Assembly: GCA_040218535.1 (NCBI GenBank)
Contig: JAVJRG010000007.1
Coordinates: forward strand, 1 to 64,000
DNA length: 64,000 bases
Source: Lacipirellulaceae bacterium
Lineage (GTDB): Bacteria; Planctomycetota; Planctomycetia; Pirellulales; Lacipirellulaceae
Direction: 5' to 3'
Part shown: one piece after another, positions 1-15,506 of the stretch
Numbering within the stretch: position 1 is the first letter of the stretch
How the letters are laid out: the number at the start of each line of letters is the position of its first letter
The notes under the pieces: generated by a model
The model's input: only the letters and a program-made list of their open reading frames with translations
What the model was told of the DNA's origin: nothing
Databases searched by the model: none
Position numbers and translations under genes: made by a program

Positions 1-329
1 CCCCGATCGACTTGCGAATCATAAAAGTCTGCCACTGCCGTATCCTTGAATTCCACACTGGCCCAGTCCGCCTGCTGCTCAACGAGCACGAGGTCTTCGA
101 CCAGCAGCAGATCCTCGGCGGAGCTGATCCCAAACCCACCAATCTCCGTCTCTCCCGCATCACGCCAGGCGAGCAACTTGCTCCACGCGTACGGGCTGAA
201 GCGTAAGGTGGGCTTGGTGATGGGAGGCCGCTGATCCGGCAACCGCTTCTTCCGCTTTCGTTGTTTCTGAGATCTCTTCTTTGCCAGTTTCTTTACTGGC
301 TGCTTCTTCTTTAGCTTCTCGGCACGCAT
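1..329 (-). CDS. JAB/JAMM-family peptidase, N-terminal part (continues past the left edge)
   Basis: The frame opens at an ATG at 329, preceded by AGGA at 7 nt, and stays open to the window edge (109 residues seen). The N terminus is strongly basic (Lys/Arg-rich, about residues 2-30). It is followed by a stretch typical of JAB/MPN peptidases: ETEIGGFG near residues 60-67, with Glu62 as the likely catalytic-site glutamate, then [14 protein letters not shown]. The HxH-x7-S-xx-D metal motif would lie outside the window. Family knowledge: JAB peptidases remove or process ubiquitin-like tails. The first 170 nt overlap the 3' end of the E2/RING-like gene in a different frame, so the two are probably translationally coupled. 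The context (beta-grasp protein, E2-like/RING-like protein) supports a deconjugase or tail-processing role. Function is inferred; the domain call is fairly secure. Confidence 0.82.
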
Positions 330-1248
330 CACAGGTTCCTTCTTCAACACAAGAGGTACAAAACGATTGCTCGCAGTCTTCACACGACCGCAGGCAATGA
401 CGACAACAGTTGATTTCACAGGCCCAGCAGGAGTCCATGCACTCGTAGCACTGCAGTTCTTCGCAGTCACAGCAGCAACGCGCACAGTCGTAGCAGAGGG
501 CCGTTTCACATGCAGAACAGTCACAGCGGTCATCAGGAGCGGCAATCCCACCACAGTCGAAACAACGCATCCCCTGCCACTCATCGAGTGCCACATAGGC
601 ACTGTCCGGGTTGTAGGAGAGCAGCACTTGCTGGACGAGCAGAAAGAAATCAAAGAGCCGACCCTCTTTCAGCGCTGCGTTGATGACGCCTTGTCCTTCC
701 CCTTCGCAGAGCGTTTCGCTGGAGACATGTGGGTGGGTGACTTCGCTATCGGTAGCCGCCGGATTGGGCTGGCTAGCCACGACGTGATAAGAGAGCCCAT
801 TGGTGCCAAGCCGCTCCCAGTCGAGAATGATCTCAAACGGGCCCAGTGCGACTTCTTCCAGTTCGATAGGAACGGTTTTCACCGAGATCGTCTGCCGCCT
901 GAGATCGACTGCGACCGAAGCGAACTCTTCGGTCAGTCCGACCAGTTCGCCAATCGCGGTTCTCGCGGTGAGGTGCTCTGCGGGACGAGTCGGCTGCAAC
1001 TCATCCGCAAATCCTTCGGGGCAGAGTGAATGAGCCATCTGTTCGCGAGCGGCTTGATATCTGCGGTGACAGACCCGTGCGGCCAGTAACCAACCCTGTT
1101 GCTGGGCCCGGTGCAATAGCCGCTGCTGTCTCAGGCAGAGATCCCACTGGAAGGTGGGCAGAGCGGGCAAACGCGACAACGCGGCTCCCTGCTGAGAGCG
1201 CTCGGCGATTGCGATCGCCGTTTGGATGAACTGGCGGTCGTGGATCAT
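160..1248 (-). CDS. E2-like conjugating domain fused to a RING-like cysteine cluster
   Basis: This is a 362-residue protein starting at an ATG with AAAGGAG 8 nt upstream. Residues about 100-225 read like a ubiquitin-conjugating (E2) fold: [10 protein letters not shown], then PNPA, then [11 protein letters not shown], where HPH (172-174) stands in place of the eukaryotic HPN and Cys181 is the candidate thioester cysteine. [19 protein letters not shown] follows. Residues 229-309 hold more than twenty cysteines in CxxC-type pairs, resembling RING-like binuclear treble clefs. The C-terminal 50 residues are polar and overlap the JAB gene. The protein may therefore combine E2 and E3-like activities. 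A beta-grasp protein lies upstream and a JAB peptidase downstream; an E1 (ThiF-like) gene is not in the window. The E2 reading comes from pattern matching by eye; the zinc-binding cluster is plain. Confidence 0.72.
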
Positions 1249-1285
1249 AAGAGTGCTCCTTTCGGTATGGATCCGCCATGAGAGT

Positions 1286-1321
1286 AAAAGACTGACCGCC
1301 CGAGCGAAGTCGGACGGTCAG
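1286..1321 (-). terminator. Intercistronic hairpin with T-rich tail
   Basis: Read on the minus strand, arms CTGACCG (1321-1315) and CGGTCAG (1298-1292) pair perfectly. After one mismatch, four more pairs surround a 6-nt loop, and TCTTTT follows at 1291-1286. It lies between the stop of the beta-grasp gene (1335) and the start of the E2/RING-like gene (1248), so it may reduce transcription into the downstream enzymes. Confidence 0.6.
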
Positions 1322-1334
1322 CGGCAAAGGCTCT

Positions 1335-1562
1335 TTACCTACGGCACGCCCCTTCGATCTTGCGTGGCGTGATCGACACGCGATCGCCCTCTTGGAGCGC
1401 CTGGTCACGGGCTGCCGGCAGGCGATTGACCCGAATGAGATAATCTTCTGAACGGGGATGTTTAACGTGGCGGTGAAAAAGCGTCTCGACGGTCGTTCCG
1501 TCAGCGACTTCGACATGATCGGCGAAGCCGGCTCCATCGTTGTTGATTAAGAGGATTTGCAA
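1335..1562 (-). CDS. ThiS/MoaD-like beta-grasp (ubiquitin-like) protein
   Basis: This is a 75-residue protein if translation starts at the TTG at 1562, which has AAAGGA about 7 nt upstream. An in-frame extension to 1661 is possible but adds sequence unlike the family. The pattern matches small beta-grasp sulfur carriers and ubiquitin-like modifiers: strand LQILLINND near the start, [13 protein letters not shown], then [31 protein letters not shown] near the end (written here as seen in pieces [31 protein letters not shown]). The C terminus is EGACRR, not a terminal GlyGly, so either a different C-terminal residue is activated or the tail is trimmed. The neighbours (E2/RING-like and JAB genes) point to a protein modifier and away from thiamine or molybdopterin synthesis. 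No biosynthetic genes are adjacent. Confidence 0.75.
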
Positions 1563-1612
1563 GGTGGGGTCCTTTCGTGAAAGTTGGTTAATCGATGAAA
1601 AGTCAGCTATGT

Positions 1613-1819
1613 TCAACAGGAAAGCTGACAGGCGAACCGTTGAGCGTCGACTTCGTCCCAATCGAGATACTTCTCCGGTTCGTTCTGATCAGAGACGGGA
1701 GGCTCCGGGTCGAAACGCTGATCGAGCGGGTCGGCAAGCGAGAAGCCAAGCTGTTCGATCGTGTCACACGATTCGCCCGTGGCGTTTGCCACGAGACGGT
1801 TGATTAGCGTTTGGTGCAT
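1613..1819 (-). CDS. Small acidic protein at the head of the ubiquitin-like cassette
   Basis: This is a 68-residue ORF with AGGAG about 9 nt before its ATG. It is rich in Asp and Glu, opens with [17 protein letters not shown] and has GFSLADP in the middle. No known domain is recognised. It is the first gene of the minus-strand cassette, 50 nt upstream of the beta-grasp gene, so it is probably co-transcribed with it. It could be an adaptor, a substrate or an accessory factor; the sequence does not decide. Its confidence rests on position, ribosome binding site and codon-like composition. Confidence 0.6.
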
Positions 1820-1880
1820 GAGAGGATACTCCTCTGGGTTAGGGAGCGCGCAGCAGCGATCGCCACGCGAAACACATGAG

Positions 1881-1907
1881 AAAAAGCCCCGCCAGAGATG
1901 CGGGGCT
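1881..1907 (-). terminator. Rho-independent terminator after the TOPRIM operon
   Basis: On the minus strand, stem AGCCCCGC (1907-1900) pairs with GCGGGGCT (1892-1885) around a 7-nt loop and is followed by a T run (1885-1881). It lies about 90 nt past the TOPRIM gene stop and ahead of the ubiquitin-like cassette, so the two minus-strand groups look like separate transcripts. Confidence 0.85.
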
Positions 1908-1996
1908 CACTGAGAGAACCTGCAGGGAGATTGTTTTGACGACAGAACAATCCCTGGAGTACTCTGCGTTAGGCAGACTGGATCAAGTTCGTGCTT

Positions 1997-2722
1997 TCAG
2001 CTATCCACCAGCTGGCGTATTTCCTGCAGCCAGCCGATGAGCTCGTGTTCTGGGTCGGACCGGGCAAGCAGCTTGGGCGTCATCTGGCTAACTGCTTCAC
2101 TGTTGAGCCAACGCTTGGCACTCTCGATAAGTCTCTTCTGGCTGCGCTGAGATAGTGAGCGCCAGGCGAGCTGAGGGGCCGATTCGGCTAGCCTGGCCTT
2201 GGCCAGTGTGACAGCCACATTGGTTTCAGGTTTCATGACCAGCTTGGGGCCACCCGCTCGCTGAATGGCCTTCGGGTGCAGATAGTTCTCTAGGGAGCGA
2301 CGCGAGGTAATGCGGGCCGTGCAGTTGGGGTGCTGGTCGATGCGAGCGACGACCGTAAGACGATTGAGCGCCTCGGCTCCACACTCTTTGTCGTGGAGAT
2401 GAAAGCGTGGTTGACCAAGGCGGGCCAGCCGTTCGCCCCAAGCGGCAATATCGCCGGAACCGCCGCCTCCGGTGGGAAAGAATAGAATCTTCCCTACGGC
2501 TTCCCAATTAGCAAGGTTGGGGGTCTGCTCGTCTTGCTTGTTCAGAATGGCCGACAGGTTGCTCAAGAAGGCAACGTCGTGGTTTCCTTCGACCACGACG
2601 AGCACTGGGTGCCAACGGCCGTCTTGCAGGTTTTTACGATACGTCCCAGTCGATGGGAGTGACTCGGAGTGGCGGTACGCATCCAACTCTCTGTTCGCGC
2701 GTTCCATGACGGTATGACTCAT
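1997..2722 (-). CDS. OLD-type TOPRIM domain protein, putative nuclease
   Basis: This 241-residue protein has TOPRIM hallmarks: a hydrophobic strand ending VLVVVEGNHD (Glu45, Gly46), then FHLHDKE with Asp111 and Glu113 as the acidic pair, and TSRRSLENYL (139-148), the signature seen in TOPRIM domains of OLD-family and related DUF3226/DUF4435-type proteins. No ATPase domain is present, so this is a stand-alone TOPRIM protein. The start overlaps the stop of the upstream lipoprotein gene by 4 nt (ATGA), which indicates coupling. In family terms it would be a metal-dependent DNA or RNA nuclease. Its position beside a CRISPR array and a ubiquitin-like cassette suggests defence, but that is inference. 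Confidence 0.7.
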   Translation of the reverse strand: MSHTVMERANRELDAYRHSESLPSTGTYRKNLQDGRWHPVLVVVEGNHDVAFLSNLSAILNKQDEQTPNLANWEAVGKILFFPTGGGGSGDIAAWGERLARLGQPRFHLHDKECGAEALNRLTVVARIDQHPNCTARITSRRSLENYLHPKAIQRAGGPKLVMKPETNVAVTLAKARLAESAPQLAWRSLSQRSQKRLIESAKRWLNSEAVSQMTPKLLARSDPEHELIGWLQEIRQLVDS

Positions 2723-3246
2723 GGTGATTCCTCTGTGGGATTTGGGGAGTTCTCTGCCGACTGGTCGTGAGGTAGTTGCTGTGGCGACGGCGCGGATTCA
2801 GTTGAGGCCTCTGGAGGCGGCTCGTTCGTCCCTGTCAAAGCCAAGATGTGACAGGACTGCTCAGCAACAAGCAGCTCAAGGGCGTCCAGCTCCACCTCGG
2901 TTGCCGTGGGTCTGGCATGCAGCAACTGCCATGTCAGTACCAGCACAAGGACTGCAACAAACACTACGGCAAAACCTTGCCGTGCTCGGTGTCGCTCCCC
3001 ATCGGCACGGCGCGTCTCGGCCAGTTGGCGACGTTGTGAGTTGAGGTCGGTCCAGCCGTGGGATAACGCCTGGCGTTCCTGCTGGACCTGTTCTTGCAGC
3101 TGGGACATCTGGCGGTTCTGATCGGCTTGCCGGTCGGCAGCCTCGGTCGCTACTTGGACCACCCGCTCGTCGCTGCTGCAGCCTGCCAACAAGAGGCTAG
3201 TCAGCATAATCAGTCGAATTTTTCGTCGGCTTGTTCTTCGGTTCAC
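2719..3246 (-). CDS. Coiled-coil lipoprotein with one membrane helix
   Basis: This 175-residue protein starts at a GTG at 3246 with AGAGG just upstream; an ATG at 3207 is the alternative. Basic residues lead into a hydrophobic stretch and the lipobox LLLAGC (Cys23), a type II signal peptide. Residues about 30-88 are Gln/Arg-rich and predict a coiled coil. Residues 91-110 (GFAVVFVAVLVLVL onward) form a membrane helix. The tail is Pro/Glu/Ser-rich and looks disordered. No family is recognised. It sits between a small membrane protein (50-nt overlap) and the TOPRIM gene (4-nt overlap), so all three form one operon. A lipid anchor and a separate helix in one short protein is unusual; if the helix is the real anchor, the lipobox may be fortuitous. 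Confidence 0.62.
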   Translation of the reverse strand: MNRRTSRRKIRLIMLTSLLLAGCSSDERVVQVATEAADRQADQNRQMSQLQEQVQQERQALSHGWTDLNSQRRQLAETRRADGERHRARQGFAVVFVAVLVLVLTWQLLHARPTATEVELDALELLVAEQSCHILALTGTNEPPPEASTESAPSPQQLPHDQSAENSPNPTEESP

Positions 3247-3376
3247 GGTACCTCTTGGGTTGAAGTATGAGTTGCAGTAGTCGCTCCAGCGTTCGCCGCA
3301 GACGATGCTCGCGAGCTAGAGCAAAACCCAAAACAATCAGCGCCAGCGCAAGGGCCAGCGCAATCAGCTCCGCCAT
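3197..3376 (-). CDS. Small single-helix membrane protein
   Basis: This is a 59-residue ORF starting at the ATG at 3376, preceded by GGAG in CCAGGAGACTGCT. Residues 3-20 (ELIALALALALIVLGFAL) form one membrane helix, followed by a basic, Arg/Lys-rich cytoplasmic tail. A longer ORF in another frame covers the same bases but has no start signal and an odd Cys/Gly/Ala/Thr composition, so this frame is preferred. It leads the operon with the lipoprotein and TOPRIM genes. Its function is unknown; a membrane-anchoring partner is one possibility. Confidence 0.55.
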   Translation of the reverse strand: MAELIALALALALIVLGFALAREHRLRRTLERLLQLILQPKRYREPKNKPTKNSTDYAD

Positions 3377-3535
3377 AGCAGTCTCCTGGAGTGATTAAGG
3401 CCAGAACTTGGCCAAGAAGTGGCTTTGGGAAAGCTATTCGCTTCCTCAATTAATTATGCCACGGTTTGGGGGCGGATTTAGCAGCCATGATGAACTTCAT
3501 CCCGGTCATGGTCGCCCGGAGCGAGGGCGGTTCGT

Positions 3536-5025
3536 GTTTCAATCCGCGCTCCCGCGAGGGGAGCGATCGTGGCTGGGGCGGCGTGAAGACCTTGGCAATG
3601 CGTTTCAATCCGCGCTCCCGCGAGGGGAGCGATGTTGCGTTTGGTGCGACCGCTGGAAGGAACGCGAAGTTTCAATCCGCGCTCCCGCGAGGGGAGCGAT
3701 CTCACAAACTTAGCGAAGTCCACAGCAGGCCCTTTGTTTCAATCCGCGCTCCCGCGAGGGGAGCGATTTCGTAAGGGGGCGAAGTAAAAACTAAGTCGAC
3801 TGTTTCAATCCGCGCTCCCGCGAGGGGAGCGATGCCAGCGAATGTGGTACTCGTCGCCGAGGTGGTGTTTCAATCCGCGCTCCCGCGAGGGGAGCGATGA
3901 TCGGGAATCGGCAATCGCCCACCTACGCGAATTGTTTCAATCCGCGCTCCCGCGAGGGGAGCGATATTAGACCATGACCTACCAAACCGACCCCACTTTT
4001 GTTTCAATCCGCGCTCCCGCGAGGGGAGCGATCTCAGTTCCGTCCACGTAGAGCCGAAGCTTGGCTGTTTCAATCCGCGCTCCCGCGAGGGGAGCGATAA
4101 CGAAAGCCACACAACCACAACCAACCATGAGAGTTTCAATCCGCGCTCCCGCGAGGGGAGCGATTTGAGCTATACAATCACCACCGAATTACTCAACAGT
4201 TTCAATCCGCGCTCCCGCGAGGGGAGCGATCGAGGCAGTGACGGGCAGCACGAGCAATCGCCAGCAGTTTCAATCCGCGCTCCCGCGAGGGGAGCGATCG
4301 GAGCTTGTAGGGTTTGCTTTGTCCGGTATTTGGTTTCAATCCGCGCTCCCGCGAGGGGAGCGATGGCTCTCCGCAAGCACGACCTGCCGACCCCCGTGGT
4401 TTCAATCCGCGCTCCCGCGAGGGGAGCGATCAGAGCGCCAAGAGCAACAAATGCAATCCCAATAGTTTCAATCCGCGCTCCCGCGAGGGGAGCGATTGGC
4501 GTCGGACCTGAAAGTCTTGCAGGTCAAATACGTTTCAATCCGCGCTCCCGCGAGGGGAGCGATCCTCATCGGGCATTCCGTCGTTGGTTACAATGATGTT
4601 TCAATCCGCGCTCCCGCGAGGGGAGCGATGGGAGCAGTTGAAGCAACAGAAACAAAAGCAAGAGGTTTCAATCCGCGCTCCCGCGAGGGGAGCGATGTCG
4701 AGCCGGAACGATCTAATTCTAAAACAATAGTTTCAATCCGCGCTCCCGCGAGGGGAGCGATCTGCACGCTGATCGCCAAGGTGTCTTTGTTAATCGTGTT
4801 TCAATCCGCGCTCCCGCGAGGGGAGCGATGTCGATGTCGGCCAGTCGGCCCCGTGTGTGATGGTTTCAATCCGCGCTCCCGCGAGGGGAGCGATACCGTA
4901 AGAACTGTACCTAGTCGAAGTGCCTGTAGTTTCAATCCGCGCTCCCGCGAGGGGAGCGATACTGAGCAAAGCTAGGCAGGTCATAGTCGGTTTGTTTCAA
5001 TCCGCGCTCCCGCGAGGGGAGCGAT
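3536..5025 (-). CRISPR. Type I-C CRISPR array, 23 repeats and 22 spacers
   Basis: Twenty-three 32-nt repeats lie at 3536, 3602, 3669, 3736, 3802, 3867, 3934, 4001, 4067, 4133, 4199, 4267, 4333, 4399, 4465, 4532, 4598, 4665, 4730, 4798, 4863, 4929 and 4994. I saw no base change in any copy. Written on the plus strand the repeat starts GTTTCAATCC, contains the inverted repeat CGCTCCC/GGGAGCG around GCGAG, and ends in AT. Spacers are 33-36 nt. On the minus strand the repeat ends ATTGAAAC, the usual 3' end of type I-C repeats, so transcription runs right to left from the leader at 5026-5235, the same direction as the cas operon. The newest spacer should be the one next to 4994. Confidence 0.98.
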
Positions 5026-5235
5026 CCCGCCATCGTAAACCTCGTTGAGGTTGGCGGCTAGGATACGTTATTCGCGAACCTGCTGGTGGCGTGCCAAATT
5101 GCAGGTATGTGTTGATAGCACACATGAGCTAACTCGCCAAAATAAATGCACTTAAGACAATCGCGAACCCCAGAGGGCACCAGCGTGCGCTGACGGGTCG
5201 CGACGGGATGGGCACAGACTAGCAGGTTCTCACGG
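5026..5235 (-). promoter_or_regulatory. CRISPR leader
   Basis: This 210-nt gene-free stretch lies between the cas2 stop and the first (leader-proximal) repeat, upstream of the array in its inferred direction of transcription. Next to the repeat is an inverted repeat: AACCTC (5038-5043) pairs with GAGGTT (5047-5052), extended by CCGCCA (5027-5032) and TGGCGG (5052-5057) across a 5-nt bulge. This may be a recognition element for Cas1-Cas2 or simply a structure. No clear -35/-10 pair could be chosen by eye. Confidence 0.7.
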
Positions 5236-5526
5236 CTACGCAATCAGCGGGCCGTCGACGTCGTAGCCGGCTTTCGCTCCGACGTGTTCCACGCGGCGTT
5301 TCCAGTTCGCGCCAAGGTAGTAGAAACGCAGGCTGTCTTCTTCCGGTTGGATCAGTCCCAGCAGGCGGTCTTTGCATTCGGTCCACTCGGCAGGACTTAC
5401 CTTCATTTCAAAGACGGAATTCTGCACGCGCTGGCCGTAGTCGAGGCACGTCTTCGCAACACGCGAAAGCCGCTTTCGTCCCGCCTTTGTTTTCGTGGAA
5501 ACATCGTAAGTGACAAGAACATACAT
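5236..5526 (-). CDS. cas2: CRISPR-associated endoribonuclease/integration protein Cas2 (type I-C)
   Basis: This is a 96-residue protein of normal Cas2 length. It opens with [13 protein letters not shown], the ferredoxin-like first strand with the conserved Asp8, and contains RVQNSVFE and [18 protein letters not shown], typical of the I-C subgroup. Cas2 dimers bridge two Cas1 dimers in the spacer integration complex. It is the last gene of the cas operon, 27 nt after cas1, and is followed by the leader and array. Confidence 0.97.
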
Positions 5527-5553
5527 CAGGGCTCGCTCCCAACAGTATTCGTT

Positions 5554-6585
5554 TCACTTCCAGATCATCGGTGGATATGCGTCAATGTCGTCACGCAGAT
5601 ATCGGGCCAACAGGCGAGCCTGCAAGTGCATCAGCAGGCCGACGGTCACGCGTTCCTGCAAGTACGGGTGAAGGATTTCCTCCTGCTTGCGTTCTTGCCA
5701 CGCTACCAGCACCTTCTTACGAGTCGCATCGTCCATCGTCACGCCGCCCGTTTCGCCGGTGGTGAATCCCGCGGCGGAGACTTGCCCACGATTCACGAGC
5801 GTCAGCATCACCCGATCAGCCAACGCTGGGCGGAACTCTTCCATCAGATCGAGGGCCAAGCTGGGACGTCCGGGTCGGTCGCGATGAAGAAAGCCAACCG
5901 CTGCATCAAGGCCGACCGCTTCGCAGGCACTACGCACATCGTGCAGCAGTAATGTGTAGACCAACGAAAGCAACGCGTTGATCGCATCACGTGGAGGGCG
6001 ACGGCTCCGTTTCGTGAACTGAAACGCCCGGTCGCTACTGCCGACGAGGTCGTTCATCGCCCCGAAATATTGCACGGCCGCTTCCCCTTCGAGTCCACGG
6101 ACGCGGTCGGCTGAATCGGCGGCCTTCACTTCGACCACGCTCGCACTGAGGCGTTTGGCGACGGCCTGCAAACGCTCAGTCCGCTCCGTATCGCCTGAGT
6201 CACGAGCCGTGCGGAGGAGCACGTTGCGGCAGTTCGCGAGTTTGCCAAGCACCACCGAGCGAGCGATTTCGCAAGTGCGTTTCTCGTCGTCCGCGGCACG
6301 ATACTGAGCTCGCCGCAGCAGGACATTGCCTGGCGAATAACCGACCACCGCAGCCAGGAACTTGCCGTGCAGCGAGTGTAAAGAAATACTCACGCCGGCC
6401 TCGGCACAAGCACCCATCAATGCCGGGCTCACACCCACGCGGCCGAAGCAGGCGATGCTTTCGAGATTGTGCAGAGGAATCCGCAGTCGGGTTTCCTTCT
6501 CAACCCTCACAACGACGGCTTGCCCATCCTTTGCTAGATAAGCTCCGTCAGTCGTGACGAACAGCGTGTTGAGGTGCGTCTTCAT
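5554..6585 (-). CDS. cas1: CRISPR-associated integrase Cas1 (type I-C)
   Basis: This is a 343-residue protein from the ATG at 6585 ([18 protein letters not shown]). The open frame reaches 6702 but the extra residues do not resemble Cas1 and would overlap cas4. The N-terminal beta domain has [19 protein letters not shown]. The catalytic domain has [12 protein letters not shown] (metal-binding Glu), later [30 protein letters not shown] with the conserved His and Asp/Glu residues (seen in pieces [13 protein letters not shown] and [13 protein letters not shown]). It integrates new spacers together with Cas2 and, in I-C systems, Cas4. It lies 29 nt after cas4. No strong ribosome binding site is visible, so coupling is likely. 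Confidence 0.97.
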
Positions 6586-6614
6586 CGCGGTGCTGTGTAC
6601 ACGGAGGGAATGGC

Positions 6615-7298
6615 TTAGCGGATTGATTGAACGTAAGCAGAAGCAGTTTGGCGACCGGGCGGCGGTGGCAAGCATTTCTCGTAAAGCGAGCAGGTATAGC
6701 ACTTCTTTTCCCGCACCGCGAAAGGGACTTCACCGCTCGCCATGATTGCATGGAAACGAGCGGCAGCTTGGCGCGTGATTTCGCGCAGCGGAGTATCCAG
6801 CGGCACATCCACGCGCCGTCGCATCGTGCCATAGAAAAGCTGCCCATCGTCGATCCGCACGCCGAGCATTTCCTCCAGGCACATTGCCTGAACGCAAAGT
6901 TGCACGCGATCGCAATCGTTCTTCTTCGGCTTGCCCCGTTTGTACTCGACGGGCGTGATTTCCCACTGGGTAAGCTCTTCGGGTGTGGCTTGCAGGATGG
7001 CCTGGGTGAGCGTACGACCGCGCGGCTTCGTGCCAGCGGGTGGTCGCCACAAAACGACATCGGCGACCCCGGAAAGGCCCAACTCCAGCGACCGCAACGG
7101 CAACCCCCGGGTGATGCGCTCGCCATCTCGCGTTTCCGGTTTCCCCTCATGCGCCTTCTTGTGTAAGACGTTCCCTTCGGCAGTGAACCGATTCTCCTCC
7201 CAGAGCCGCTCAACGTGAATAAGGGCACACTGCCGCTCACAGAACCGCAGGTGCTGGAGGGCGGAGAGCGGGAGGAGGTTGGACTCGGGGTGGGGCAT
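6615..7298 (-). CDS. cas4: CRISPR-associated exonuclease Cas4
   Basis: This is a 227-residue RecB-like nuclease. The N terminus has [10 protein letters not shown], and the C terminus has [14 protein letters not shown]; together these supply the cysteines of the Fe-S cluster. The nuclease core shows GVADVV (metal-binding Asp) and [13 protein letters not shown] (Glu and Lys of the PD-ExK motif). Cas4 trims and selects prespacers by PAM with Cas1-Cas2. It lies 17 nt after the cas7 stop, in the fixed type I-C gene order. Confidence 0.96.
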
Positions 7299-7315
7299 TG
7301 GTGGCTTTCACCCCA

Positions 7316-8194
7316 TTAAAATTTGCGATCAATCGTAATGCCGTCAGGAAGATCACTCTCGTCGATCCTCACTTCGTAGTCGGAAAACTCGCGTGGAGGT
7401 TTTCCTTCATCATTGGTCTTCTGGGCCACGCTCACGCGATCAAAAAGTTTGTTCGCGGGGGCATTGCCAAGGGCGTCTTCGTGTTGGAAGCAAATCAGTG
7501 CTTGTGGAGCCATTTCGCCGCGGGCTGCTGAGCGATCACTGTCGAACATCTGGGCGAGCGACTTCCAGAAGAGTTCCAGGTCTTCCTCGCCGAAGCCGGT
7601 CTTTTCCGCAAGGTGCGGATTGATGAAGCCGTGGGCACGGTAGAGTCCGTAAGGGACGGTGAACTTGCGGCCCATTGTACGATTGCCCCCTTCTTGTTTT
7701 TCAGCTTCACGCTCGGTAGTGACCGCACAGCGGGTCACAGCGTGTTCCTGAGAAATGATCGGGTCAATACTCTGGGCCAAAGTAAACTGGATAGGACCGC
7801 GAACCTGACCGCAGTTGACATCGGTGGTCATGACCGCACCGAAGCTGCGGACATCGTAAAAATTTTGGCACATCCAAGCGGTTAGCTCTTGATCTTCCTG
7901 TGCCTTCTTCTCACCCTTCGATTTTCGCTTTTTGGGGTCAAGCTTCAATGCTTCGTAGGCTAAAGCATGCTGGTTGTTGAGGATCGCTTTTTCTTGCACA
8001 TAAATCTGATGCCCCTCGGAACCATCCTTGGCCAGCGCAACGAAATTACGCACCTTGCGTTTTAGGCAAACGTCTGTCACTAAGCCATGCCCAGTTTCCG
8101 GGTCAACACGAGGGAGGTTTCCGGCATCGGGGTCGCCGTTAGGATTGCCGTTCTTGACGTCGAAGAGATAAACAAAGTCTACGCGGGGAATCAT
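7316..8194 (-). CDS. cas7: Type I-C Cascade backbone subunit Cas7 (Csd2)
   Basis: This 292-residue protein of the Csd2 family has the conserved N terminus [19 protein letters not shown] followed by [18 protein letters not shown], which is near-diagnostic for type I-C. Cas7 copies line the crRNA spacer to form the filament of the interference complex. It follows cas8c by 62 nt, a gap long enough for its own ribosome binding site, which fits the high copy number needed. Confidence 0.97.
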
Positions 8195-8256
8195 TGTGAA
8201 AGGCCTTCGCTATTTGTGGTGAACGAGTGTATCGAGAATGAGATCATCGCTGAAAG

Positions 8257-8637
8257 TTATTCTGCGGTTGCAGCTTCTGGTTCGTCTTTCGACTTCCTTG
8301 TGAAGATTTCCTGACGTTGATGGTAGTAACCAATGGCGAACTGCCCTTGCTCTTTCATGGGTAAATGGGTTGGAAAGTCGTCGATCCGACCGGCGATTTC
8401 TTGAATCCGCTTTTCGTGGTAAGTCTTCGCCCCTTTTTCAAGCTTGCCAAGATGATGTTGGTTCATCCGAATTAAGCGAGGGAAAACGCTCGCAGGCGTC
8501 GAGGAAGCAGAACTGAAATAGCGGTCCTTGATCGTGGCATTGATGCCCGGCAGGGCATCTTCTTGCGATTTTTCCAGCGCGGCGAATAGTCTGCCGAGGT
8601 GATAGGCCATGTCGGGTCGGTCGGGGTCGAGGCTCAC
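8257..8637 (-). CDS. cas11c: Cas11c small subunit from an internal start inside cas8c
   Basis: Within cas8c and in the same frame, GGAG stands 6 nt ahead of a GTG at 8637. Starting there gives 126 residues beginning (M)SLDPDRPDMAYHLGRLFAAL and ending at the cas8c stop. Known for type I-C: the small subunit Cas11c is made by internal translation of the cas8c gene at this region, and Cascade needs it. The length and the SLDP...LGRLFA context agree. That the GTG is used here is inferred from the ribosome binding site and the family precedent. Confidence 0.8.
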   Translation of the reverse strand: MSLDPDRPDMAYHLGRLFAALEKSQEDALPGINATIKDRYFSSASSTPASVFPRLIRMNQHHLGKLEKGAKTYHEKRIQEIAGRIDDFPTHLPMKEQGQFAIGYYHQRQEIFTRKSKDEPEAATAE

Positions 8638-9993
8638 GGGTAGCTCCAATTCGTAGTTACGGTTGAGGCAGGCTTTGATCGCTGCTGCGCGGATGAAACG
8701 CACTTCTCGGTCAGCCTTGATCCGTCGCAGCAGAGAAGAGTAGAAAAGATGTGGGTACTTTCCACCAGTGATGATGGCTCTCAACAAAGCCCCTTCCAGC
8801 AAGTCGGGGATGTCTTTCGCATCGCGGACCGTCTCACGAAGCAATCTCCACATCGGAGGGTGGGGTAAGTCTTTTAGGCCGCGAGCGATTTCGAGGTTCT
8901 GAAAATGCAGAGCGAGGTTGTTCGTCAAGTCTTGGATTGTACTACGCCACCAGAAGCGGACAGAAATGCGAGCAGCGTTGGGTGCTAGTCCAAGGATGTA
9001 AAACTCGGTGTCCGGCTCGCCAAATTCTCCTGGAAACTTGCCTCGAGAGATTTTTTCTAGGATCGCGCCGATTCGATTCGCAAGTTCTTCGTCCTCGGCA
9101 GCACTGGAAGGATCAAGGGCGAATGGGAGGAGCTGCTCGACGGCACTAGGCTTGTCTGTCCAAAAGACTACCGAGGTGTCGCCGAGGCGGATGCATTGCT
9201 CGCTGGCGAGCAATCGGTTAAGGGCGACGCAGTACTGAAAAGCAACTTGCTCGTTGACTGCCGCATTCGAGCCGCCATCTTTGCCATAGGACTCATAGGC
9301 TTTGTCATTGAAGGACACCAGCAACGCGCCAGCCGACTGCCCGCCCCAGACACCTTTGATTTTCGGTTCGTGCAGACGAGCAACAGGACCAACTTTGCCA
9401 CTGACAAGGCATTGAGCAATCGTGTCCTCATCTTTTACTTCGGCTTCTTCGATCTGCTTATTCCACCACTTCGTGATTGGAGGACTCTCGTGAACATATT
9501 GTTTTTTCGATCGCAACTTGAAGACGCCGAAGCCCGTTTTCACTTCAGTCAGGATCCGAGTCTTTTCGTCGTTGCCGACGATCTCAGGGTTCCAGGTTTC
9601 TAGAAAGGTGCATACGGCAGAGAATTCAGGCGAGTCGATTTCCTCTTTCAAAGCCAAGTGCTTGTCGCGGAACGCCTCAAATGCTTCTTTGGTCCGCTCA
9701 GGCTTGTTATCATCAGGTTTGTAACCCAATGCATAGGAAGAATTGTCCCACAGGAAGCAGGGATTGATGCCCGAGCCAGAAGGCTTTGCGCTACCCAGCA
9801 CGATGAGCGACTGATTCTTCAGCTTCCCTTTTTCGTCGGGTTTTCGGGCGTCTTGGATTTCAAACAGCGTGCCATCTTCTTCCAGCACGACGATGAATGA
9901 AATCTGCTGACGGCTATACCCGTACGCAGCGATATCACAATCAAGATCGGCAGCCAGTCGTTCGTAGTAATCGTTGAGCGCGTGGAGCAGCAT
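8257..9993 (-). CDS. cas8c: Type I-C Cascade large subunit Cas8c (Csd1)
   Basis: This 578-residue protein is of the Csd1 family (usual length about 570-620). It begins [16 protein letters not shown] and carries PCFLWDNSSYALGY, YCVALNRLLA and FWWRSTIQDLTNNLALHF, features familiar from Csd1. Cas8c recognises the PAM and starts R-loop formation. The start ATG shares one base with the cas5c stop (TAATG), so the two are coupled. Its 3' end contains a separate internal translation start for the small subunit (see the entry at 8257-8637). Confidence 0.96.
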   Translation of the reverse strand: MLLHALNDYYERLAADLDCDIAAYGYSRQQISFIVVLEEDGTLFEIQDARKPDEKGKLKNQSLIVLGSAKPSGSGINPCFLWDNSSYALGYKPDDNKPERTKEAFEAFRDKHLALKEEIDSPEFSAVCTFLETWNPEIVGNDEKTRILTEVKTGFGVFKLRSKKQYVHESPPITKWWNKQIEEAEVKDEDTIAQCLVSGKVGPVARLHEPKIKGVWGGQSAGALLVSFNDKAYESYGKDGGSNAAVNEQVAFQYCVALNRLLASEQCIRLGDTSVVFWTDKPSAVEQLLPFALDPSSAAEDEELANRIGAILEKISRGKFPGEFGEPDTEFYILGLAPNAARISVRFWWRSTIQDLTNNLALHFQNLEIARGLKDLPHPPMWRLLRETVRDAKDIPDLLEGALLRAIITGGKYPHLFYSSLLRRIKADREVRFIRAAAIKACLNRNYELELPVSLDPDRPDMAYHLGRLFAALEKSQEDALPGINATIKDRYFSSASSTPASVFPRLIRMNQHHLGKLEKGAKTYHEKRIQEIAGRIDDFPTHLPMKEQGQFAIGYYHQRQEIFTRKSKDEPEAATAE

Positions 9994-13346: not shown

Positions 13347-15506
13347 TCACCCCTGCCCACCTGTTTTATTTTGGGCATCCCTGCGTTTTTGATTGATCTC
13401 TTTGCGTCGCGCCCGCCCATCAGGAACTGGTAGCCCGCGATCCTGGTGGTATTTGACGACGGCTTCGCGCACGACTGCGAGGCCGATGTTGAGCTCCTTG
13501 CCGATTTCATGGACTAAGTGGTCTTGGTTGAAAAGTGCCATGATCTCCTTGGCGAGGCGTGTTGCTTTCGTGTTTTTTTCCAAGCGACCTCGCAGCGATC
13601 GACCGTCTGGGACTGGAAGGTTGCGAGAGGTATGCCAGTAGGCGAATGCTTTGCTGTAGAGCTTCTTGCTGATTTCGAGCGAACTTTGAATTTCCTTAGC
13701 TGGCACACCCTTATCAAACATTTCCTTGACTTGGTCAGCAAGCTCAATATGTCTGGTGCACGGCGGATCCTTGAAGTCGATCTTGAACGTTTCGGATAAC
13801 TCGCTATCGTTCGAGGACTCTGTACGGTAGCCAATCGCCGAAGCGACATTGTCGAGTTTAATGCGAAATTCTCCACGCAAATGATGGCGTTTCCTTCCCT
13901 CTCTCCGTACTTCGAATACTGTAATTCTGCCATCAATCACCTTTCGAAGAGCATGAGCAGCAGATGTCGGGTCGTCACGTAGTAGGTTGTCCAGCTCCGA
14001 AAGCTTCGACACGAGCCAATCTTTGGTAGGGGCCGCAGGACGGCTATCTTTTTGGGTCTTTAGAGTGCGAATTTCAAGTTGGAGGTCCCGCCTTTCACTC
14101 TGTCTCTTTTTAAGCCGCTCATTGACATCACTACTGGGATTGGTTTCGTAAAGATCCAGTAGATTAGATATACCTCGGTCTACTTCCTTCATTTGATCCT
14201 CAAGCGTCTTGAGTCTTGCCGGAGATTCCTGCTCAATCTTGTTCCAACATGCCAAGGTTGCTTGGAATAAGAATTCGATCCAGCGCTCATCAGCTAGGAT
14301 ACGGTGACTGATCGCATCCAGAATCATTTTTTCAGCAAGCTCACGCCGCAGGGTCGTTCGGCAGCTGCAAACCCCATCACGATATCCTTTGCAATGCATG
14401 TAACTGCTTGATGGCCCACCCACATGCAGTAGTTGACCCTTCTCACCGGCTTCTTCACGCTGCTGCAAGCAATCGCCACATTGGACAAGACCTTGAAGAA
14501 GGTGTCGCGGATTCGCATGGCTCGATTTGGGAGTAGCTCCCTTCCATACACCGTTCTCTTTTCGACTGCCAGCATACAAGTCACTATTGTGAGCGATTCG
14601 GTCTTGTGCAGACCGAAAAACACCCACATCGACGATGGTTAGGTGTGGCATCTGCCGTACGATAATCCCTTCGTCGTTACTCTCACGGTCTACTTTGATC
14701 TTTCTTCTCGTCAAGGGATCCCGAACCGTCTTGGTTTTCCCCCATACCCAAATCCCCACATATTTCGGGTTTTTCAAAATGCCCATAACACCTGTGGTAC
14801 TCCAATTCCGTGATTGTGCATGTCGTCCTTTTGGAGCCTTTAGTCGATTAAGTTCTCGCACAATCCAACGGCAAGATTTTCTTTCTACGGCGAACCAATG
14901 AAATATCTTGCGAACCCATTTCGCCTGCTCTGCATTGATGACGTACTCCTTTAGAGGCTTGGCGTTCTTGCAAGTCCTCTGTACTGCTGGATCGGAGGCT
15001 TCAACGGTGTCGTAGCCATAACAGTGATCTCCAACAGCAAATCCTGCTTTCGCAGTGCCTCTAAGGCCCCTCAAAACCTGTTTCCGGAGGATTTCTAGAT
15101 ACTGTTCATTAAGGAAGCCATTGATAAGAGCTGGCAATTTCCACGGGGTACCAGATGCTGTATCTATGTTGTCATCGATAGCGATGACGCGAATCTGTCG
15201 AGCCTCGACCAGCTCGCTCAACGTGTTTAGAGATTGCATTAGGTCACGAGATAGCCGAGAGAGGCTTTCGAAGATCAAAACGTTTATCTCGCCAGCACGG
15301 GCGGCTTGCATCATAGCGTCGAAGCCTGCCCGATCTGGCGAAGCCCCTGACGTGCCTTTGTCGAAAAATTGGTAGCGTGGATCGACTTGCAACCCTTCTC
15401 GGCGAGCACATTCATTACACTTATCCTGCTGATCAATGATGCTCCTCTCATCTTGCATCGCCGTTGAAAACCTTGAGTAGGTGGCCACCCCTGTTGACGG
15501 CCCCAT
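13347..15506 (-). CDS. Large serine recombinase
   Basis: This is 719 residues from the ATG at 15506; the frame stays open to 15683. The later start puts the nucleophile Ser14 (in TYSRFSTAMQDERSI) at the usual distance from the N terminus, while the extra 59 residues include an unrelated hydrophobic stretch. The catalytic domain continues with FFDKGTSGASPDRAGFDAM, NVLIFESLSRLSRD and IDDNIDT. The recombinase domain has GILKNPKYVGIWVWGK, and a zinc-ribbon region has LVQCGDCLQQ...MHCKGYRDGVCSC. A coiled coil (about 480-530) and two C-terminal repeats with LPVPDGR follow. Such enzymes integrate phages, transposons or ICEs at att sites. It sits beside a tyrosine integrase, in a variable region. Confidence 0.88.
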   Translation of the reverse strand: MGPSTGVATYSRFSTAMQDERSIIDQQDKCNECARREGLQVDPRYQFFDKGTSGASPDRAGFDAMMQAARAGEINVLIFESLSRLSRDLMQSLNTLSELVEARQIRVIAIDDNIDTASGTPWKLPALINGFLNEQYLEILRKQVLRGLRGTAKAGFAVGDHCYGYDTVEASDPAVQRTCKNAKPLKEYVINAEQAKWVRKIFHWFAVERKSCRWIVRELNRLKAPKGRHAQSRNWSTTGVMGILKNPKYVGIWVWGKTKTVRDPLTRRKIKVDRESNDEGIIVRQMPHLTIVDVGVFRSAQDRIAHNSDLYAGSRKENGVWKGATPKSSHANPRHLLQGLVQCGDCLQQREEAGEKGQLLHVGGPSSSYMHCKGYRDGVCSCRTTLRRELAEKMILDAISHRILADERWIEFLFQATLACWNKIEQESPARLKTLEDQMKEVDRGISNLLDLYETNPSSDVNERLKKRQSERRDLQLEIRTLKTQKDSRPAAPTKDWLVSKLSELDNLLRDDPTSAAHALRKVIDGRITVFEVRREGRKRHHLRGEFRIKLDNVASAIGYRTESSNDSELSETFKIDFKDPPCTRHIELADQVKEMFDKGVPAKEIQSSLEISKKLYSKAFAYWHTSRNLPVPDGRSLRGRLEKNTKATRLAKEIMALFNQDHLVHEIGKELNIGLAVVREAVVKYHQDRGLPVPDGRARRKEINQKRRDAQNKTGGQG

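Follow-up and report, generated by a model that had tools for sequence, protein, structure and literature searches.

Several bacterial ubiquitin-like (Ubl) conjugation systems are known, some of which act in anti-phage defence. BilABCD brings a Ubl, an E2, a JAB and an E1 together in one operon; in the part of its description that concerns the components (PMC11354881), BilA has two Ubl domains, BilD has an extra inactive half and a Cys domain, and BilB carries a CEHH motif. The class 6d operons of Iyer 2006 also hold Ubl, JAB, E1 and E2 together, some of them on mobile elements, and the passages devoted to them (PMC1779556) give an E2 without the classical histidine. FtsH ternary conflict systems (eLife 2020) comprise JAB, E1, E2, Ubl and a prokaryotic RING, with the Ubl fused to the E2 and the RING separate in the section that treats them (PMC7159879). 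In addition, the lambda/T1 tail proteins TAPI/TAPK provide a phage-borne Ubl and JAB, for which the relevant passage of PMC1779556 describes a tail module and no E1 or E2.

The DNA analysed here, called the window, is a stretch of 64,000 nucleotides from a Lacipirellulaceae bacterium and forms the start of contig C7 in a 13-contig genome. According to the original prediction, it opens on the minus strand with a Ubl, a 362-aa protein that carries HPH...Cys181 ahead of clustered cysteines, and the beginning of a JAB gene; all three are indeed present (Table 1). The JAB open frame starts with an ATG at position 329, overlaps the E2 gene, and runs to the contig edge. The last 141 bases of contig C2 are identical to positions 1-141 of the window; past this overlap, the JAB gene continues on contig C2 to L005:12037 and is followed by an E1 gene at L005:11391-12047 (218 aa), which matches Pfam ThiF (1.9e-22) and is the ThiF-like E1 looked for beyond base 1. 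It is likely that the window copy joins the JAB and E1 genes on contig C2; the join is short of certain because two further copies, on contigs C13 and C11, stop at the same repeat within their E2 genes.

Table 1. Features of the cassette and its adjoining genes in the window (positions are those of the forward strand).
Feature	Position	Strand	Basis or remark
JAB (JAMM) gene, 5' part, ETEIGGFG	1..329	minus	rest on contig C2
E2-like protein with fused zinc domain, 362 aa	160..1248	minus	conservation and AlphaFold model
Predicted tandem binuclear treble-clef zinc domain, C229-C309	322..564	minus	conservation and fold matches
Predicted E2 (UBC-like) domain, residues 94-226	571..969	minus	AlphaFold model and VIA-align to E2 chains
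Cys181, putative thioester cysteine	706..708	minus	invariant in 52 sequences
HPH motif, residues 172-174 (H172-P173-H174)	727..735	minus	invariant in 52 sequences
Ubl, 75 aa, beta-grasp, KIEGA near C terminus	1335..1562	minus	TTG start
Conserved 68-aa protein	1613..1819	minus	matches in 42/80 loci
TOPRIM-like protein, 241 aa	1997..2722	minus	label by motif; relatives in 17/80 loci
Lipoprotein-like coiled-coil protein, 175 aa	2719..3246	minus	label by eye; relatives beside C13 and C11 copies
Small hydrophobic protein, 59 aa	3197..3376	minus	similar ORF at L008:9269-9478, by eye

The explanation that we favour, with somewhat better than even confidence, is that these genes form a complete cassette for reversible Ubl conjugation, in which the E2 is fused to a zinc domain and which moves between phages and integrative elements; both the conjugation and its target are putative. 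Like BilABCD, the cassette has Ubl, E2, JAB and E1 in one operon; unlike BilABCD as it is outlined in PMC11354881, it has a single Ubl, a 218-aa E1, an HPH...C motif, and a zinc fusion. In PADLOC at E 0.1, the E2 and Ubl of the window family match no model, BilA and BilB included, while the JAB matches JAB models only and the E1 matches E1-E2 models and, weakly, BilD (2.3e-6); membership in BilABCD was rejected on these profiles. The presence of Ubl, JAB, E1 and E2 together is also shared with class 6d, in contrast to the HPH of the window E2, since the class 6d E2, in the passages cited above, lacks the classical histidine. In NCBIfam, the E2 and Ubl gave no match of any kind at E 1, the JAB matched no PRTRC model, and the PRTRC ThiF model gave the E1 24.5 bits against a cut-off of 144.75. 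Membership in PRTRC, which we take to be the same as class 6d, was rejected on these scores. The Cap3 model of type II CBASS gave 18.3 bits against 200, and no CD-NTase was recognised in the scanned part of the recurrent neighbour clusters. Unlike the arrangement outlined for the FtsH ternary conflict systems, the window E2 is fused to the zinc domain and the Ubl is separate.

A second Ubl system lies on contig C5 of the same genome (L164, G000:C5:1515000-1533000, genes 1652-9478). Each of its members scores over the Pfam cut-off: a YukD-like Ubl, a ThiF E1, a JAB, a UQ_con E2, and two Prok-RING_1 proteins, of which one has a trypsin domain. This system resembles the window cassette in that genes for Ubl, ThiF E1, JAB and E2 are clustered with those for zinc proteins; however, its RING and E2 are separate genes, whereas in the window the E2 and the zinc part form one chain with no Pfam match for either part. 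Pfam detects the system on contig C5 and not the window E2; therefore, the window cassette represents another family. Titles and abstract openings among the literature matches shown name neither this E2-zinc cassette nor a complete phage-borne Ubl cassette, and the priority of either description is uncertain.

In the 362-aa protein, residue 181 is followed by 24 cysteines, and the conserved set C229-C309 comprises 20 of these. In a 52-sequence alignment (A5: the window protein and 51 of 64 complete relatives), no variation is seen in HPH, C181 or 12 of the cysteines, and another eight cysteines reach 90%, which agrees with the expectation that Cys181 would be conserved in homologues. Near copies, cut rows and stop-bearing rows were dropped from the alignments, among them A6 (the window and 49 of the 51 relatives in A5), A1 (16 of 23 E2s), A2 (15 of 19 E1s), A3 (15 of 20 JABs) and A4 (16 of 22 Ubls). 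E2 matches occur in 73 of the 80 loci from genome_contigs; all 72 that extend to the motif have HPH...C and the cysteine pattern, and an in-frame stop was read in six of these.

The AlphaFold model built from the 52-sequence alignment has a mean pLDDT of 89 and a pTM of 0.72. By our own count, 23 of the 50 VIA-align matches listed are E2 chains, and among these listed matches residues 94-226 are covered solely by E2 chains; for UBE2S, 118 residues align with Z 7.8 and rmsd 3.5. The remaining listed matches align the helical N terminus, are unrelated and have similar Z. In Foldseek, the model gave no match at E 0.001, and E2s first appear at E 0.63. No Pfam family, those of E2 included, matched the window protein at E 1; UQ_con (PF00179) did not match its gene even at E 10, its sole match in the genome being another gene, on contig C5 (8.9e-11), and no E2 is found among 20 PDB profile matches of the protein. 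An E2 fold for residues 94-226 is thus supported by structure prediction and the motif, to a moderate degree because all VIA-align Z values are below 8 and the Foldseek E values are above 0.3; the predicted domain lies where the original prediction had placed a UBC fold (residues 100-225).

The cysteine part, folded alone, has a pLDDT of 88 and is predicted to be a tandem binuclear treble-clef domain of the RING/FYVE/PHD class, nearer to FYVE/PHD than to RING. Structure comparison pairs it best with fingers of the FYVE, PHD and related types (Z 3.4 to 6.0): the second half aligns with the FYVE domain of Vps27 (Z 6.0 over 49 residues), and the first half matches PHD fingers and an SLP4 finger titled RING domain (Z 5.0 over 52), the sole entry so titled, with FYVE/PHD matches scoring above or level with it. 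At E 1, Pfam searches with 16 members yielded no Prok-RING family, while Pfam Prok-RING_1 does detect proteins of the second Ubl system in this genome. Therefore, the proposed E2-RING fusion is supported in part: the fusion is real and conserved, but the best matches of its zinc part are to FYVE, PHD and similar fingers, and not to RING ligases specifically. The fold matches do not separate a RING as such from FYVE/PHD.

Whether the zinc part has an E3-like role or serves in targeting appears about evenly balanced, as judged from predicted folds. As a targeting module, to which we give somewhat less than an even chance, it would dock the protein to a membrane, a nucleic acid or another protein, and the E2 would transfer alone. 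This agrees with the FYVE, Rab-effector and PHD fingers among the best fold matches, and with the variation of the zinc units: L062, L093 and L110 lack some conserved positions, and the cysteines after the motif number 1 to 45 in viral E2s. The fold class, however, does not distinguish docking from E3 help, and a weak profile match to Midline-1 (E 0.002) leans the other way. Viral E2s L197, L198 and L201 have 5, 1 and 3 cysteines after the motif; therefore, the zinc domain is not universal in viral E2s.

A sample of 297 genomes from the class has the family in 46, some matches being fragments. In a sample of the phylum, 29 of 343 genomes match, 20 of them strongly (E 4.5e-42 or better, as read from the table) and eight in the cysteine region only. 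Also in this sample, G512 (L133, L134) has a distant E2-cysteine fusion that reads HPHPH...PCLGN and adjoins JAB and E1 matches. A Ubl search of genome_contigs gave 94 relatives, of which 80 were kept, nearly all labelled Planctomycetota; L108 (labelled Chloroflexota) and L118 (labelled Emcibacter) are short contigs that may be binning errors. Among the named carriers are Lacipirellula limnantheis I41, Neorhodopirellula pilleata Pla100 and Rhodopirellula sp. SM50, and no Ubl relative was matched in plasmids. In Planctomycetota, the cassette is patchily distributed and multicopy, and frequently has large serine recombinases and an AAA+/DUF2997 module in its vicinity.

Among the 80 loci, many of them cut by contig ends, an AAA+ gene is present in 36, DUF2997 in 32, a helical 362-aa accessory protein in 43, an 87-aa protein in 45, and a serine recombinase family in 28, with 34 copies co-oriented and one opposed. 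The recombinase of the C11 copy matches Pfam Recombinase (9.3e-16). Positions 13914-15305 of the window (minus strand) weakly match this C11-copy recombinase (E 2e-14, 19% identity). DUF2997 occurs in 10 of 58 genomes, E2 in nine of 59, and both in seven; the DUF2997 assignment is solid (1e-17), and DUF1257 stays under the cut-off (E 0.093). The AAA/DUF2997 module is also found without the cassette. An AAA/DUF1257-like/DUF2997 module is seen at L143-L153 with no recognised Ubl cassette, and at L151 an AAA gene is near an HSP70-like gene. The neighbour AAA protein, labelled AAA by Pfam, presumably resembles Ycf46, and the helical accessory protein, on which Pfam gave nothing useful, is one that we take to be DUF3150-like. 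In Synechocystis, the account in PMC4284462 places DUF2997 beside DUF1257 (ycf35) and fed7. A 'sliding-clamp-like' label for another neighbour was discarded as Pfam gave nothing. Pfam gave no confirmation of the TOPRIM-like label either; as a neighbour, the TOPRIM-like gene of the original prediction does recur (Table 1).

Searches of IMG/VR gave six and then eight contigs with the Ubl and 29 with the E1 (32 distinct by name). Among the 29 contigs found with the E1, profiles detected the E2 in 28, the JAB in 29 and the Ubl in 26. All four genes, in the order Ubl-E2-JAB-E1, are present in 25 of the 29; excluding five contigs that had helped to build the profiles, this is 20 of 24, and 19 of 23 when host-like L177 is also left out. 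L177 is not counted as phage because, by eye, bacterial-type AAA, TOPRIM-like and 68-aa genes sit there next to one that resembles a recombinase. All 29 contigs have the JAMM motif, 27 of 28 the E2 motif, and 17 of the 26 Ubl matches KxxG, nine being without the pattern. Viral L160 has HPN instead of HPH. PHROGs matches were obtained for ten selected neighbours on five contigs; for nine, the best match falls in DNA, RNA and nucleotide metabolism (Sak4, DNA polymerase, exonuclease VIII, SSB, DnaB and RusA), and the tenth is a phosphoesterase/SbcD. Terminase_6N scores over its cut-off in 2/9 and 7/22 records (8/30 without the record of L177) and Terminase_3 in 1/20 viral records, where the IMG/VR records may be fragments. 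Tandem Ubl repeats, two E1s, and additional JAB-like and E2-like genes occur in L162 and L163. The tandem Ubl and second E2-like genes lie at L162:53-586, L162:4560-5225 and L163:4551-5216.

Named phages gave no match to the window E2, the viral E2s or the JAB; 80 of their records, crAss-like and Flavobacterium phages included, are a distant match to the E1. In Bacteroides phage PhiCrAssBcn22 (L175, 2082-5696) and Flavobacterium phage Fpv1 (L176, 1578-5669), a JAMM-motif protein adjoins an E1 annotated as thiamine biosynthesis protein (crAss-like E1 against that of L044, E 2.5e-18), and a 420-444 aa protein with an HSH...C stretch (by eye) lies upstream. These ThiF loci share JAMM and E1 with the cassette, but relatives of its E2 and Ubl were not detected in them. 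Unlike the lambda/T1 tail module, the viral cassettes include all four genes, and on several contigs they lie near replication genes.

In a tree of 63 E1 sequences, 27 planctomycete E1s and that of L177 form one clade (0.90) within viral E1s. Therefore, transfer from phage to bacterium is the likelier direction, and the Planctomycetes probably acquired the cassette from phages, as far as the E1 sequences indicate. This is short of proof because the backbone support of the tree is uneven, the placement of its root depends on two distant phage E1s, and in a tree of 40 sequences viral L171 falls inside the bacterial clade. The cassette is considered mobile because its relatives lie in phage replication/recombination regions and its copies are multiple and near recombinases. 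A more specific scheme, to which we give slightly under an even chance, suggests that tailed phages encode complete cassettes near replication genes, that the planctomycete copies are their captured descendants, and that the E2-zinc protein is a self-contained E2/E3. As a tentative part of this scheme, the E2 of phage cassettes would usually be zinc-fused, and some phage cassettes would have tandem Ubl repeats and doubled enzymes. Ubiquitin-like signalling would then take part in the DNA replication of phages or in their takeover of the host.

Host anti-phage defence is an unlikely alternative: during infection the cassette would tag proteins of the phage or of the host, much as Bil or type II CBASS do, and phage copies would then be counter-copies or captured defence genes. 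This alternative accords with the patchy, multicopy distribution, with the matches of the E1 to the PADLOC E1-E2 and BilD models, and with the inclusion of defence among known bacterial Ubl systems in the accounts cited (PMC10097602; BilABCD, PMC11354881). Against it, the E2 and Ubl match no PADLOC model, cassette relatives occur in phage replication regions, and viral E1s branch outside the bacterial clade. The original prediction had also reasoned that a cassette beside CRISPR may serve defence. In a simple repeat scan of the window and 125 loci (L033-L157, some overlapping), CRISPR-like arrays were found only in the window, L143 and L139; the repeat of the L139 array differs, and L143 has no recognised Ubl cassette. 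With adjacency not recurrent among these loci and relatives carried by phages, that reasoning is not supported and the CRISPR adjacency looks incidental; a defence role argued from it was set aside. Overall, a role for the phage or element appears likelier than host defence.

The partner proteins agree with a conjugation cassette. The best Pfam match of the Ubl is ThiS (E 6.6e-4, 20.6 bits), under the cut-off of 22.5. A pattern search found TPxKIEG in the Ubl at 74 of 80 loci, followed by A in 70, G in three and T in one, and the tail beyond the KIEG glycine ranges from 1 to 49 residues. The E1 has conserved GxGxxG and DxD, belongs to Pfam ThiF, and is nearest to ThiF/MoeB/MccB types in profile matches; the JAB has a conserved HxHP...S..D motif and belongs to Prok-JAB (25.7 bits against a cut-off of 25). 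The order Ubl-E2-JAB-E1 holds in the fetched loci that contain all four genes. A sulphur-carrier or small-molecule pathway, in which Ubl, E1 and JAB would make a thiocarboxylate without protein conjugation, is highly improbable despite the nearness of the Ubl to ThiS and of the E1 to the types above, since a dedicated E2-like protein with an invariant cysteine lies in the same operon and no cofactor or sulphur genes were recognised in the recurrent neighbour clusters.

Protein conjugation by the cassette is considered very likely, and the reversible conjugation that we favour may proceed as follows. The JAB would trim the Ubl after the conserved KIEG (at G71), exposing a C-terminal glycine. 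The single-domain E1 of 218 aa would adenylate the Ubl and pass it to Cys181 of the E2 as a putative thioester. The fused zinc domain may position the substrate or boost transfer, an E3-like role in cis, and the JAB would afterwards take the tag off. The tagged target would most likely be a protein that acts in replication or recombination of DNA or in host takeover, to the benefit of the carrier phage or element. The family is set apart by the zinc module in the E2 chain and by whole-kit relatives in phages. If it works in this way, phages use reversible protein tagging, and their deep diversity offers material on how E2s and zinc-finger partners joined before eukaryotes.

The E2 gene is under purifying selection. 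Among the three copies in this genome, its dN/dS is 0.12-0.17, and that of the zinc part is 0.00-0.06; three pairs in G011 gave 0.26, 0.42 and 1.04, the last from very few changes. When the copies on C13 and C11 (L007, L008) are compared, silent divergence is 1.09 in the E2 part but only 0.14 in the zinc part, a drop that suggests gene conversion. Several cassette copies are also seen in single genomes at L155, L156 and L157 (G182) and at L033-L039 (G011). The copies share blocks of 2-5 kb, at 97% in G182 and about 80-97% in G011, and these homologous blocks have sharp starts and stops. No attachment site could be fixed at the block ends in G011 and G182; a 20-bp palindrome (up to three changes) lies near one end in four of nine G011 loci.
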